Source of the DNA: Nitrospirota bacterium
GTDB lineage: Bacteria > Nitrospirota > Nitrospiria > 2-01-FULL-66-17
Direction: 5' to 3'
Length of the DNA stretch: 64,000 bases
NCBI GenBank assembly: GCA_040757335.1
Contig: JBFLXB010000016.1
Location: forward strand, 1-64,000
Below the pieces are notes generated by a model. It saw only the letters and a program-made list of their open reading frames with translations, ran no database searches and had not been told where the DNA came from. Each line of letters starts with the position of its first letter. Positions within the stretch are counted from its first letter, which is position 1. A program made the position numbers and the translations under genes. Below are positions 35,876 through 59,455 of this stretch, in pieces.

Positions 35876-36412
35876 GTGATTGGTCTATCGTCGTGGGTGA
35901 GAAGCATGATCCGTAGGGCCAAGCTGGTTGCGTCGCCGGTTGGCTTGCTGCACGATCCGCAAAGAAAGGGGCGATTTCCAGGGGTCCCCTTGGCGCACTC
36001 CGGGTTTACCTTGATCGAAGTCATGGTGGTGGTCACGATTCTGGCTATCCTGGCCATCCTGGTGGTGCCCAAGATCGTGGGGCGAACCGACGACGCGCGG
36101 CGGACCGCGGCTATTGTGGAGATCAAAAACCTCGAAGAAGCCCTGCATCTCTACAAACTCGACAACGCCTTCTATCCCACAACGGAGCAGGGACTGGAGG
36201 CCCTCGTGACGAAACCCACGTCGAGTCCGATTCCGGAGCGATGGCGCACCGGAGGCTACGTGGCGAAGGTGCCCAAAGATCCGTGGAACAATGACTACGT
36301 CTACCTGTCGCCCGGAACGCACGGCGATTTCGATTTGTTGTCGTACGGCGGGGACGGGGAGCGCGGCGGGGAGGACAAGGACGCGGATCTGGAGAATTGG
36401 GATCTGAAGTGA
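35876..36412 (+). CDS. gspG: Type II secretion major pseudopilin GspG with extended leader
   Basis: The cleavage site SG|FTLIEVMVVVTILAIL is followed by the pseudopilin helix and a Ca-binding-type C-terminus (DPWNNDYVYLSPG, YGGDGERGGEDKDADLENW). Mature length is about 135 residues, normal for GspG. The frame gives a leader of 43 residues, far longer than the usual 6-15, because it includes one 20-residue module beginning GLLHDPQRKGRF (35942-36001). True initiation could lie further in. GspG forms the body of the pseudopilus. Confidence 0.93.
   Translation: MIGLSSWVRSMIRRAKLVASPVGLLHDPQRKGRFPGVPLAHSGFTLIEVMVVVTILAILAILVVPKIVGRTDDARRTAAIVEIKNLEEALHLYKLDNAFYPTTEQGLEALVTKPTSSPIPERWRTGGYVAKVPKDPWNNDYVYLSPGTHGDFDLLSYGGDGERGGEDKDADLENWDLK
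35942..36001 (+). repeat. 60-bp leader module in gspG (1 copy)
   Basis: One 20-codon unit, GLLHDPQRKGRFPGVPLAHS, lies directly before the Gly of the prepilin cleavage site. It is the most diverged copy: the position of the hairpin seen in gspH and gspI reads ggggtccccttggcgcac and does not form the 7-bp stem. Confidence 0.75.
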
Positions 36413-36431
36413 CACCGAGTGATGGGTTGAT

Positions 36432-37163
36432 ATGACAAAGGCGGGATGGGGGGATTTCCGAAAGGGATCCCCTCGTCACGTGGAGGTCGGCTTGCTTCGC
36501 GATCCGTATCGAAGGAAGCGATTACATGCTGCGCCCTTGGCGCAGGGCGGGTTGCTGCGCGATCCGGGAAGAAGGGGAGGATTTACAGTTGCGCCCTTGG
36601 CGCAAAGCGGATTGCTGCGCCACCCGTGTGGATTGGGACGATTGACATCTGCGCCCTTGGCGCAGGGCGGGTTTACTCTGATTGAAATTTCGATCGTGGT
36701 GTTTATTCTTGCACTCGTGGCGTTGCTGGTGACTCCAAAACTGCACCGGTTCGCGGGAGGGGACGCCCGATCAGCGTCGCGCGAGTTGGCCGGATTTGTC
36801 GCTGCGCTCGAACAGGAGGCGGTGGCGTCGCACACCATCCATCGACTCTATTACGACCTGGAGGCAGACGAGTACTGGGTCACGACACTGGTGCCGGTGG
36901 GCGGCGTGCTGGAAGAAGGTGCTCCGGTGGGCACGAAACGCCGGCTTCCTTCCGATGTTCAGTTCGAAGACGTGGCCACAGCGCACCAGGGATTGGTCAC
37001 CTCGGGGACGGCGTTCACCCAGTTCTTTCCTTCGGGCGCGGTGACGCGAACCACCATCCATCTTCGCGATGAGGATGACGCGAAGTACAGTCTGTCGGTC
37101 AATCCGATCACGGGCCGAGTCGTGGTCACGGACGGATACGTGGACACGGTGGGGGCGTCGTGA
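36432..37163 (+). CDS. gspH: Type II secretion minor pseudopilin GspH with triple-repeat leader
   Basis: The pseudopilin core begins QGG|FTLIEISIVVFILALVALL and continues with a GspH/FimT-like domain (SRELAGFVAALEQEAVAS, YDLEADEYWVTTLV). The frame from the ATG at 36432 gives a leader of about 80 residues, most of it three tandem 20-residue modules (GLLRDPYRRKRL..., GLLRDPGRRGGF..., GLLRHPCGLGRL...). The start is uncertain: TTG codons in each module could initiate. GspH is a minor tip-complex pseudopilin. Confidence 0.88.
   Translation: MTKAGWGDFRKGSPRHVEVGLLRDPYRRKRLHAAPLAQGGLLRDPGRRGGFTVAPLAQSGLLRHPCGLGRLTSAPLAQGGFTLIEISIVVFILALVALLVTPKLHRFAGGDARSASRELAGFVAALEQEAVASHTIHRLYYDLEADEYWVTTLVPVGGVLEEGAPVGTKRRLPSDVQFEDVATAHQGLVTSGTAFTQFFPSGAVTRTTIHLRDEDDAKYSLSVNPITGRVVVTDGYVDTVGAS
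36489..36668 (+). repeat. 60-bp leader module in gspH (3 tandem copies)
   Basis: Units at 36489-36548, 36549-36608 and 36609-36668 are exactly in frame and end where the cleavage-site Gly begins. Each holds a 7-bp hairpin with a 3-base loop: CTGCGCC/GGCGCAG at 36529-36545, TTGCGCC/GGCGCAA at 36589-36605 and CTGCGCC/GGCGCAG at 36649-36665. Confidence 0.9.
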
Positions 37164-37651
37164 GCACGCGGGGCGGCTTGCTGCGCGATCCGAGTGGAAT
37201 GGGACGATTTAGATTTGTGCCCTCGGCACAAGGCGGATTGCTGCGCCAACCGCGAGGAACGGGACGATGTACATCTGCGCCTTCGGCGCAGTGCGGATTT
37301 ACTCTGTTGGAAATCATGGTGGCGCTGGCCATCATTGGGGTGGCGTTCGTGGCCCTGCTCGGGCTGCGGAACCGAGACATCGTGCTGCACGAACGTGGGC
37401 GCGCGATGATTCAAGCCACCGCGCTCGCGCAGCAGCGGATGGGCGAGGTGCTGGTCGGCACCTATCCCGATGTGGGAACCAGTGAAGGACAATTCGAAGA
37501 CGAACAATCGCGGTTTGCCTGGCGCCAAGAGGTGCAACAGACGCCGTTCGAGTTCGTGCGGGAGGTCCGCGTGACCGTGACGTGGGATCCGCCCCACAAC
37601 GAACGAGTCGACTTGGTGAGTTACGTCTTCCAACGCTCCGCCCAACCGTAA
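37160..37651 (+). CDS. gspI: Type II secretion minor pseudopilin GspI with double-repeat leader
   Basis: The core starts QCG|FTLLEIMVALAIIGVAFVAL and includes the GspI segment MIQATALAQQRMGEVL. The GTG start overlaps the gspH stop by 4 bp. The leader of about 45 residues consists almost wholly of two 20-residue modules (GLLRDPSGMGRF..., GLLRQPRGTGRC...). GspI is part of the GspH-I-J-K tip complex. Total length is 163, with a mature part of about 118. Confidence 0.92.
   Translation: MSTRGGLLRDPSGMGRFRFVPSAQGGLLRQPRGTGRCTSAPSAQCGFTLLEIMVALAIIGVAFVALLGLRNRDIVLHERGRAMIQATALAQQRMGEVLVGTYPDVGTSEGQFEDEQSRFAWRQEVQQTPFEFVREVRVTVTWDPPHNERVDLVSYVFQRSAQP
37175..37294 (+). repeat. 60-bp leader module in gspI (2 tandem copies)
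   Basis: Units at 37175-37234 and 37235-37294 are in frame. The hairpins are TTGTGCC/GGCACAA (37215-37231) and CTGCGCC/GGCGCAG (37275-37291), again with 3-base loops. The first differs from the gspH stems by paired changes on both arms, so base pairing is kept. Confidence 0.9.
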
Positions 37652-44418: not shown

Positions 44419-45204
44419 TCATGCGGCCTTGATGCCCTTCAGAACCACGGTGATGGCCCCGTATTTCCCGGCAACCTCCCGGGTCTCAGCCTCCGGGCTC
44501 TTCGAGAAGTAGTCAACGTGACTGATCGCGGCGACATCGGAGAAACCCGCCTTCCGGAACAGAGTCAGGTAGTCGTCCTCCAACACCGCGCCCACGATGC
44601 ACTCGGCCCAGAGCTGGGGGTTCTCCCGCGACGTCTCCTTGATCGGCTTGCCGAGCACGATATCGGAAATCTGGATCCGGCCGCCGGGCTTGAGGACTCG
44701 GAAGATTTCGGCGAATGCGCGGGGTTTGTCGGGCACAAGGTTCAACACGCCGTTGCTGGTCACGACATCCATGGAGGCGTCGGGAAGCGGGATCTTCTCG
44801 GCGTTCCCCTCGATGAACGTCGCGCACCGCGCAGTCATTTTGGCGGCGTTGGACCGCGCCTTCTCGAGCATGGCCGGCGTCATGTCCAGGCCGTAGACCG
44901 TGCCGCCCGGGCCGACCCACAACGAGGCGATGAGCACGTCGGTTCCCGAGCCCGAGCCAATGTCGAGCACGGTGTCGCCCTTCCGGATCGCTCCCACGGC
45001 AAAGGGATACCCCACGCCCGCGAACGACTCCACGGCCGTGGCCGGTATCGCATCGAGCTCCTCGGCGGGGTAGCCCACGAATTCGCACGCCGGGCGACCC
45101 GTAGGGAAGTGAAACGCTCGGTTGGGGCAGCTTGCCACGTCGGAGTACATCTGCGACACGGCCTTAAAGATCGACTCCTTCTTGGTATCGGTGATGGCGA
45201 CCAT
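44419..45204 (-). CDS. ArsM-like class I methyltransferase
   Basis: The 261-residue enzyme has VLDIGSGSGTDVLIAS, VYGLDMTPAMLEKAR, VTSNGVLNLVPDKPRAF and LKPGGRIQISDIVLGKP, the arsenite methyltransferase-like pattern. Cys residues occur at SCPNRAF, RPACEF, RCATF and AECIVGAV, the last like the ArsM CIAGA motif. The classical ArsM GCG-NP Cys is replaced in SFAGVGYPF, so arsenic methylation is possible but unproven. A GGAGGGAGG site precedes the ATG, immediately downstream of a repeated leader (45211-45332). Confidence 0.75.
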   Translation of the reverse strand: MVAITDTKKESIFKAVSQMYSDVASCPNRAFHFPTGRPACEFVGYPAEELDAIPATAVESFAGVGYPFAVGAIRKGDTVLDIGSGSGTDVLIASLWVGPGGTVYGLDMTPAMLEKARSNAAKMTARCATFIEGNAEKIPLPDASMDVVTSNGVLNLVPDKPRAFAEIFRVLKPGGRIQISDIVLGKPIKETSRENPQLWAECIVGAVLEDDYLTLFRKAGFSDVAAISHVDYFSKSPEAETREVAGKYGAITVVLKGIKAA

Positions 45205-45210
45205 TGCAAT

Positions 45211-45332
45211 CCTCCCTCCCTCGCTTGCGAAGCGCAACGCAGGCGCGTCGTTCCGCGCCGAGAACCTGCGCCGTGCCGACGGCACGGATGCCAATCGCCC
45301 TTCCTACCAGGTGGCGAAGCACTGCGAGACGC
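45211..45332 (-). repeat. Shared leader element, copy B (upstream of ArsM-like gene)
   Basis: On the minus strand the element begins gcgtctcgcagtgcttcgcc and contains cacctggtagga, gggcgattggcatcc, a perfect hairpin (ccgtgcc, 3-base loop, ggcacgg), gcgcaggttctcggcgcgg and a final gcaagcgaggg that abuts the ribosome-binding site. It is about 95% identical over roughly 95 bp to copy A at 58998-59180. Confidence 0.85.
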
Positions 45333-45403
45333 CGTTGATCTTGGTGATACGTTTCGTGTCAGCCGGGTTATCGTCCCCCGTACAGCGCGGCCAAAAGGTA
45401 CCG

Positions 45404-58427: not shown

Positions 58428-58496
58428 GGGAGCGGATTGTAACGCGCCGGATAATGTATCGTCTAGAAGTCTGGCTGCGTATGCGTGTGTGGCCCC

Positions 58497-58528
58497 TTGA
58501 CTCTGGACCTAGGTCCAGGGTGTATAGT
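58497..58528 (+). promoter_or_regulatory. MerR-type promoter-operator of merR
   Basis: TTGACT (58497-58502) and TATAGT (58523-58528) are separated by a 20-bp spacer, the elongated spacing of MerR-controlled promoters. The spacer holds a perfect 16-bp palindrome, ctggacctaggtccag, at 58503-58518. The merR ATG is only 8 bases after the -10, so the message is probably leaderless. Confidence 0.85.
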
Positions 58529-58535
58529 GCGCTCG

Positions 58536-58961
58536 ATGAAACCTTCGACCATTGGGTGGCTCGCCAGAGAGGCGGGTGTCCGGGTGGACACGGTTCGCTA
58601 TTACGAGCGCCGGGGCTTGATCCCGCCGCCCTCTCGGCGCGACTCGGGCTATCGGGAGTATACCGACGACGACCTCGCGCGGGTCCGGTTCATCCGGCGG
58701 GCCAAGGACCTGGGGTTTTCGCTGGCGGAGATTGCCGAGCTGTTGAATCTGCGGGTCGACCGCCGGAAGACCTGCGCGGACGTCAAGCGCGAAGCGGAGC
58801 GGAAGATGGCCGAGATCGATCAACGAATCGCCGAACTCGCGCGAATGCGCGGCGCCCTGAAGGGTCTGGCTGCAGCCTGTCGGGGACAGGGCCCCACGAA
58901 CGAGTGCCCGATCCTCGACAACTTTGACCAAGCGCCTGGTAACCGGGGAAGGAGGCGGTGA
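58536..58961 (+). CDS. merR: MerR-family mercury-responsive regulator
   Basis: The 141-residue protein has a MerR helix-turn-helix (GWLAREAGVRVDTVRYYERRG) and a dimerisation helix. Three Cys at residues 80, 115 and 124 keep the exact 35- and 9-residue spacing of Tn501 MerR C82, C117 and C126, the Hg(II) ligands. It should repress and, on Hg(II) binding, activate its own promoter by untwisting the 20-bp spacer. The earlier Met is upstream of the promoter -10 and is rejected. Confidence 0.9.
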   Translation: MKPSTIGWLAREAGVRVDTVRYYERRGLIPPPSRRDSGYREYTDDDLARVRFIRRAKDLGFSLAEIAELLNLRVDRRKTCADVKREAERKMAEIDQRIAELARMRGALKGLAAACRGQGPTNECPILDNFDQAPGNRGRRR

Positions 58962-58997
58962 AGCAGAGGGCAAGAGAGGACAGAGCGAACGGCAAGA

Positions 58998-59180
58998 GCG
59001 TCTCGCAGTGCTTCGCCACCTGGTAGGAGGGGGCGATTGGCATCCGTGCCGTCGGCACGGCGCAGGTTCTCGGCGCGGGAAAGCGCGCCTACGTTCCTTC
59101 GGCACCTGTAAGGAAACGCGCATTGTATTCCGCGCCGCTAGGCGCGGTGCAGGTTGCGCCACGCAAGCGAGGAAGGGAGG
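58998..59180 (+). repeat. Shared leader element, copy A (merR to thioredoxin-like gene)
   Basis: The element starts gcgtctcgcagtgcttcgcc and matches copy B (45211-45332) through cgcgcctacgtt (about 59095). It then carries an extra segment with a second hairpin (ccgcgcc, gcta, ggcgcgg at 59130-59147) before the shared end gcaagcgagg next to the ribosome-binding site of the thioredoxin-like gene. Confidence 0.85.
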
Positions 59181-59185
59181 GTGAC

Positions 59186-59455
59186 ATGTCTACACAACGA
59201 CGAGTGGAAGTGTTCAGCGCGGGGTGCACGGTCTGTGACGAGACCATCGCCATGGTCCAACGCCTGGCGTGTCCGTCGTGCGCCGTGGAGGTCGTCTCGA
59301 CGCGCGACGCAGCCGGAGCGGACCGCGCCCGCCGGTACGGCGTCACGCGCGTGCCCGCGGTGGCGGTTGACGGCCGCCTACTCGCGTGCTGCGCGCAAGG
59401 CGGTCCCACGGAAGCCACGCTGCGAGAGGCCGGTATCGGCCGTCCCCTGGCGTAA
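59186..59455 (+). CDS. Thioredoxin/glutaredoxin-like protein of the mer locus
   Basis: The 89-residue protein has a thioredoxin-like fold with an N-terminal SAGCTVCD CxxC, a second LACPSC pair and the cis-Pro loop RVPAVAVDG. Similar proteins accompany MerT/MerF genes and may transfer or reduce metal-bound thiols. The start MSTQRRVEVF follows a GGGAGGG site and the repeated leader. Confidence 0.8.
   Translation: MSTQRRVEVFSAGCTVCDETIAMVQRLACPSCAVEVVSTRDAAGADRARRYGVTRVPAVAVDGRLLACCAQGGPTEATLREAGIGRPLA

Follow-up and report, generated by a model that had tools for sequence, protein, structure and literature searches.

Small palindromic repeats of bacteria are usually described as loosely intergenic. 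The BOX, RUP and SPRITE elements of Streptococcus pneumoniae are small intergenic stem-loop elements that cluster and insert into each other (PMC3049150, PMC10969869). The REP or GTAG palindromes that accompany RAYT (TnpA_REP) are short imperfect palindromes of high copy number, mostly intergenic, whose stems vary by complementary changes in genomes carrying Y1 transposases (PMC3733652, PMC2817692, PMC8266576). The Correia/NEMIS elements of Neisseria are mobile palindromes that lie beside genes, end up in transcripts and serve as RNase III substrates (PMC2649163), whereas the Rickettsia palindromic elements are mobile and insert in frame into protein genes (described in PMC10969869). Small, hairpin-forming, mobile elements are also described from compact genomes, namely the repetitive hairpin elements of sponge mitochondria and the GC-rich mobile clusters of yeast mitochondria (PMC2800124, PMC4478555).

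The DNA analysed here, a stretch of 64,000 nucleotides from a Nitrospirota bacterium (hereafter the window), contains two such repeats, E1 and E2, which resemble each of these systems in part. Like BOX, RUP and SPRITE, with which they were compared by description only, they are small intergenic stem-loop elements that cluster and insert into each other. In contrast, E1 obeys a tight one-end rule at ribosome-binding sites (RBS) and tRNA ends, with a fixed orientation and distance to SD sequences and tRNA ends, of which there is no report in PMC3049150 or PMC10969869. E1 and E2 share with REP sequences the properties listed above, but are longer (54-66 nt), exhibit no conserved GTAG at the hairpin foot, hardly any G-U pairs and no copies flanking transposase genes. 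No sequence in common with Correia/NEMIS was seen, and the RNase III substrate role of these elements may, by analogy, serve as a model for E1. E2, again compared by description, resembles the Rickettsia palindromic elements, but measures about 60 nt rather than about 150, codes in tandem units, and has its coding use chiefly in leader peptides that are expected to be cut off. Compared with the mitochondrial elements, E1 and E2 reside on a bacterial chromosome and are unrelated in sequence.

Two look-alike leaders in the window

The features that make up the two leaders and their genes are the following.

44419 to 45204, minus strand: ArsM-like methyltransferase gene behind leader 1 (Pfam Methyltransf_31, 8.7e-33)
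45211 to 45218, minus strand: RBS side of the arsM-like leader (GAGGGAGG), adjoining E1, from the sequence
45219 to 45342, minus strand: E1 copy before the ArsM-like gene, interrupted by E2 (model R1, 51.3 bits, and the genome-wide family)
45263 to 45320, minus strand: E2 nested in the arsM-leader E1, holding the ccgtgcc-gtc-ggcacgg hairpin (model R2, 73.3 bits)
58485 to 58961, plus strand: merR regulator gene upstream of leader 2 (Pfam MerR_1 and MerR-DNA-bind)
58988 to 59172, minus strand: E1 copy between merR and the thioredoxin-like gene (trx), interrupted by two E2 (model R1, 24.2 bits across the inserts)
59010 to 59068, plus strand: E2 copy a, at the same position in E1 as the E2 at 45263-45320 (model R2, 77.4 bits)
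59096 to 59155, plus strand: E2 copy b, second insertion into the merR/trx E1, after CGTT (model R2, 66.7 bits)
59186 to 59455, plus strand: small thioredoxin-like gene behind leader 2 (Pfam Thioredoxin_3, 1.3e-7)

The sequence-only reading described the two leaders as about 95% identical, both ending at the RBS, and offered two readings, a dispersed element and an RNA or regulator by which metal(loid)-linked genes would be jointly controlled. Their match is real and not due to chance, the main block aligning within the window with an E value of 1.6e-36, but its identity is 92.9% over 97-98 nt (minus strand 45332-45236, plus strand 58998-59095), that is about 93% rather than 95%. On the RBS side, a second part of 28 nt aligns with 89% identity (45238-45211 and 59153-59180), although the shared block of the trx leader is broken by a 60-nt insert at 59096-59155, which is the second E2 copy. 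The perfect hairpin CCGTGCC-GTC-GGCACGG is present in both leaders as described, and the likeness to the cgattgacatc hairpin of the gsp genes is stronger than claimed: the stretch 36614-36673 is a member of the E2 family. The CCTCG end of E1 is located at 45219 in the arsM leader, 14 nt from the start codon, and at 59172 in the trx leader, 13 nt from the start codon. The ArsM-like gene matches the NCBIfam arsenite methyltransferase PRK11873 with 1.1e-65, below the curated cut-off.

E1 measures 54-66 nt and comprises CCTCGCTTGCG, which forms a small hairpin, an imperfect long hairpin (CGCAACGYAGGCGCG-loop-CGCGCCGAGGCTGCG), AGA and often TTGA. E2 measures about 60 nt, starts after TT with GCTTCGCCACCTG, continues with a hairpin and ends with GCAGGTT. 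We estimate at roughly 0.8 the probability that both leaders are insertions of one composite, the palindromic repeat E1 carrying the nested palindrome E2. Duplication or gene conversion of one locus, without any element family, would also fit the identical position of E2 copy a in the two leaders. Against this, dozens more copies lie at unrelated loci, the likeness ends at the element ends, and the flanking genes are unrelated on both sides; this explanation is hardly tenable and is refuted by the copy number.

Copies, pairing and movement of E1 and E2

Queried with the leader block, the whole genome yielded 17 places, and a pattern for the 3' part of the block matched 19 places, compared with 0 in the reversed control. 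Covariance models were built from 16 copies of E1 (R1) and 9 copies of E2 (R2). In the genome of the window (G000), 34 E1 and 64 E2 matches were found, with 52 and 66 in G001 and 23 and 9 in G002, two relatives of the same family with completeness of 65% and 88%. The bacterial family is represented here by these three genomes. Many of the copies are dispersed, intergenic, imperfect palindromes, as are REP sequences. Together with the mutual nesting and the clean empty sites in relatives, this upholds the dispersed-element half of the sequence-only reading.

Among 197 genomes of the class, R1 matched three, all of one family, and none outside it. An exact pattern for the E1 core, applied to 84,980 genomes, was found in one assembly only, JACQCD01, a Nitrospirae MAG that is very probably G001. 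R2, applied to the same 197 genomes and to 296 of the phylum, gave a single match outside the family, in a genome of a different family of the same class (G016 C10:11165-11232, L244; 40.8 bits). Variants of E1 in which the first small hairpin is swapped for another (CCCCGCAAAGCGGGCT) occur at L211, L214, L215, L221 and L236, which suggests a modular exchange of parts. A further repeat, likewise dispersed but longer, has inverted ends (AGGCTGCTGAAAAAGTCC ... GCTTTTTGAGCAACCT) and carries E2 at a fixed inner position (L169, L173, L178 and L144, e.g. G000 C1:404968-405024).

In both E1 and E2, pairing is kept through two-sided changes, the covariation that had been proposed as a check of the leader structure. 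For E1, 97.5% of the cells of alignment A2 are paired, with 22 two-sided changes, a level that none of 500 shuffles reached. In alignment A4, which comprises 40 copies and was made without structure, 97.9% are paired, with 59 two-sided changes compared with at most 7 in the slid controls. E2 exhibits 99.1% paired cells and 10 two-sided changes, and its terminal stem, over 63 copies, contains 298 Watson-Crick, 6 G-U and 11 mismatched cells in at least 10 stem versions. As the minimum free energies of single copies are ordinary for their composition (z of -1.7 to 0.4), it is the covariation that carries the structure. G-U pairs occupy only 3 cells of A4, a scarcity which suggests that maintenance of the palindrome as DNA counts for no less than maintenance as RNA. 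Upkeep as DNA could act on hairpin or cruciform DNA, or proceed by template-switch correction.

Several sites are informative about movement. At the merR/trx junction of G001 (L199), E1 is uninterrupted (L199:1201-1266) and lacks either E2, while the flanking E1 sequence is nearly identical; compared with the window, both E2 insertions, of 59-60 bp each, have a clean empty site in L199, that of copy b being CTAC^GTTGCG. Clean filled and empty sites, by which MITEs are recognised, thus exist for E2 at merR/trx and likewise at gspG. For E1, filled and empty sites occur at gspL/gspM, where E1 lies between the two genes in G001 and a 4-nt overlap joins them in the window, and at arsM, neither being clean to the base. 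E2 is flanked by TT on the left in 51 of 63 copies and has TT at its right end in 57 of 63, junctions compatible with cutting of the IS200/IS605 kind as well as with a 2-bp duplication. A parent IS was not found, and the left flank of E1 exhibits no constant target. The base-exact sites of E2, in E1 and in prepilin leaders, fix its ends and its TT target. Three composites (at 45 kb and 59 kb in the window and near 76.05 kb on contig C13) carry E2 at the same position in E1, so E1 carrying E2 was probably copied as a unit: E2 inserted into E1, as the empty sites show, and the E2-bearing E1 would then have been copied to another junction. It is well supported that E1 and E2 are dispersed mobile palindromes and that they are nested.

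E2 also occurs in the leaders of the gsp prepilin genes of the window.

35947 to 36006, plus strand: weak, diverged E2 in the GspG-like prepilin leader (model R2, 19.1 bits)
36494 to 36673, plus strand: three tandem 60-nt E2 (36494-36553, 36554-36613 and 36614-36673), in frame with the GspH-like prepilin leader (model R2; open frame ...GLLRDPYRRKRLHAAPLAQG...GFTLIE)
37180 to 37299, plus strand: two tandem 60-nt E2, in frame with the GspI-like prepilin leader (model R2; open frame to GFTLLE)

The gsp units measure exactly 60 nt and contain no stops in the prepilin frame, and they lengthen the leader peptide ahead of the cleavage motif, as in GspH (...GLLRDPYRRKRLHAAPLAQGGLLRDPGRRGGFTVAPLAQSGLLRHPCGLGRLTSAPLAQG-GFTLIE). 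These open frames indicate that translation continues through the gsp copies of E2, which thereby add leader peptide to the prepilins. As with the Rickettsia palindromic elements, in-frame insertion is found in the GspG, GspH and GspI leaders and an empty orthologue exists: gspG of G002 (L192) has no E2 and exhibits the empty site MTREH|GFTLIE, in contrast to gspG of G000 and G001, where E2-derived sequence is present. The insertion point lies between TT and TACT of GGC-TTT-ACT, which restores GF. Upstream of GFTLIE genes, G002 carries tandem E2 (L193) and G001 two E2-derived units (L194), and the number of units in these leaders (window 35947-37299) differs between relatives.

The probable form in which E1 and E2 spread is that of palindromes folded from single-stranded DNA and moved by an enzyme acting in trans, possibly one of the Y1 transposases of the genome. 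E1 and E2 could accordingly be REP sequences in the strict sense, mobilised by RAYT/TnpA_REP transposases. Their high copy number, intergenic location and palindromic nature fit this, as do the eight Y1_Tnp genes of G000 and the four of the relatives, some of which are of RAYT type, and the inner GYAG that precedes the E1 hairpin, the only such motif conserved in E1. In contrast, none of these twelve Y1_Tnp genes has an E1 within about 1.5 kb in any of the three genomes, and E2-like matches at the same loci are weak, the best of 19.8 bits; the transposases are thus at most candidate mobilisers. A conserved GTAG at the foot of the E1 hairpin was not found, columns 11-14 of A4 reading GTAG, TGAG, GAAG, TGGG and others, and E2 has no such tag. 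Strict REP identity is thus rather unlikely for these nested mobile palindromes.

Placement of E1 and its neighbours

The sequence-only reading held that many copies at random positions and orientations, away from gene starts, would point to a simple repeat rather than control. E2 exhibits such scatter, whereas the placement of E1 is strongly non-random. Among the 85 E1 copies with features on both sides, 42 have their CCTCG end either 11-20 nt away from a start codon or within 5 nt of a tRNA end, compared with 7.1 +/- 2.4 (maximum 19 in 20,000 trials) when position and orientation are drawn at random within the same gaps; only 2 copies obey the same distance rule with their tail end. Gene starts in this test were computed, and the gene calls near the copies come from a home-made codon model that is adequate for distances and misses some small genes. 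Most copies lie between co-directional genes, with the CCTCG end inward. Random insertion alone does not explain why one end always faces the boundary; E1 may insert preferentially at RBS and tRNA-end sites, or survive only there.

In G000, the CCTCG end abuts the RBS of rpoB, nusA, ruvC, a class I aldolase gene, thioredoxin genes, arsM and others, and it abuts tRNA-Gln (upstream of prs), tRNA-Asp, tRNA-Ser, tRNA-Glu, tRNA-Met and tRNA-Thr (upstream of tuf), rpoB, nusA, ruvC and tuf being named from their N-terminal sequence. The RNase Y gene is a further neighbour. As E1 neighbours are this heterogeneous, a metal regulon is excluded as the rule for E1, and the shared metal(loid)-linked control proposed for the two leaders is not supported.

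A metal(loid)-responsive riboswitch or operator common to arsM and the mer thioredoxin gene would account for the near-identical leaders of two metal-linked genes, and merR/trx is the one metal-linked site at which E1 recurs, in G001 (L199) and probably also at another mer locus of G000 (L151:4002-4067). The E1 neighbours, most of them housekeeping genes and tRNAs, speak against it. The arsM orthologues of both relatives also lack E1 at the RBS: G002 still has the globin gene ahead of arsM, in the same order, but no E1 in the arsM leader, and in G001 an E1 is found before a globin remnant, at a distance of about 100 nt from arsM on its upstream side. Furthermore, the trx leader of G001 lacks E2, and with it the hairpin common to both window leaders. 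Rfam gave no match in the window, nor at the E1 and E2 copies of L001-L003, L199, L141, L150, L148 and L191, and a riboswitch or other known RNA was rejected on this ground. A shared metal switch is therefore very improbable, and the arsM and trx leaders most probably represent ordinary 5'-leader decoration rather than metal sensing. For annotation, near-identical leaders before two metal genes should not be taken as evidence of shared metal control.

Two observations were made at these loci. The arsM leaders of both relatives (L238, L239) carry a different palindrome, of the GTAGGGGCAGGCC type, where G000 has E1. The E1-like repeat at L151:4002-4067 (G000 C18:10239-10304) precedes a thioredoxin-like start, MSTQRTVEVF..., which was missed by the gene caller; a MerT-like gene is nearby, and this is probably a second mer-type locus in G000.

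Possible roles of E1 at transcript boundaries

At such sites, E1 would be transcribed as an intercistronic hairpin beside the translation start, where any influence on processing, stability or initiation would be a general one. E1 could have a function as a boundary element of RNA, its hairpin between cistrons directing the processing of mRNA or tRNA or shielding the RBS, and be under selection at particular junctions, for which rplL/rpoB, rimP/nusA, yebC/ruvC, tRNA/tuf, tRNA-Ser, tRNA-Glu and tRNA-Met are named. This is consistent with the strict adjacency to SD sequences and tRNA ends and with the recurrence of E1 in more than one genus at the rplL/rpoB, rimP/nusA, yebC/ruvC, merR/trx and tRNA-Thr/tuf junctions and beside tRNA-Pro, tRNA-Ser, tRNA-Glu and tRNA-Met, despite proteins that are only 67-95% identical between genera. 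The E1 stems at shared junctions differ by paired changes, and at tRNA-Glu and tRNA-Met each copy is most similar to its own orthologue. Such junctions are not predicted by purely selfish spread and could mean a function.

Other observations argue against selection as RNA. At some other shared junctions, the orthologous copy is not the closest match, and the mixed pattern fits either saturation or repeated insertion; the yebC/ruvC E1 of G001 has lost its inner hairpin. E1 occurs at both the 5' and the 3' ends of tRNAs, so RNA would be made from either strand. G-U pairs are nearly absent, unlike in typical RNA helices, which speaks for a constraint at the level of DNA, whether double-stranded or single-stranded. 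When read in the leader direction, 52 of 63 copies have a GNRA motif within the loop window, compared with 1 of 63 in the opposite direction, yet its excess over the composition-matched expectation at CDS starts does not surpass that at tRNA 3' ends; the tetraloop test does not show RNA-level selection, and tetraloops were rejected as a sign of it. A dedicated RNA boundary function is therefore possible but tentative. We also consider, as a speculative and fairly improbable synthesis, that E1, as a mobile palindrome, either seeks out RBS and both tRNA ends or persists nowhere else, always with the same end inward, and has been co-opted in this Nitrospirota family as a general RNA-boundary (processing or insulation) element, with E2 parasitising E1 and able to enlarge prepilin leaders in frame. 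The presence of E1 at the same operon junctions across genera offers, together with its tight one-end rule, a testable case of a possible passage from a selfish repeat to a general transcript-boundary element.

One locus of G000 exhibits E1 on both sides of a tRNA gene: at C15:11063-11358 (L138), four tandem E1 copies with a spacing of about 79 bp lie beside tRNA-Ser(tga), and an inverted E1 is located on the other side of this tRNA.
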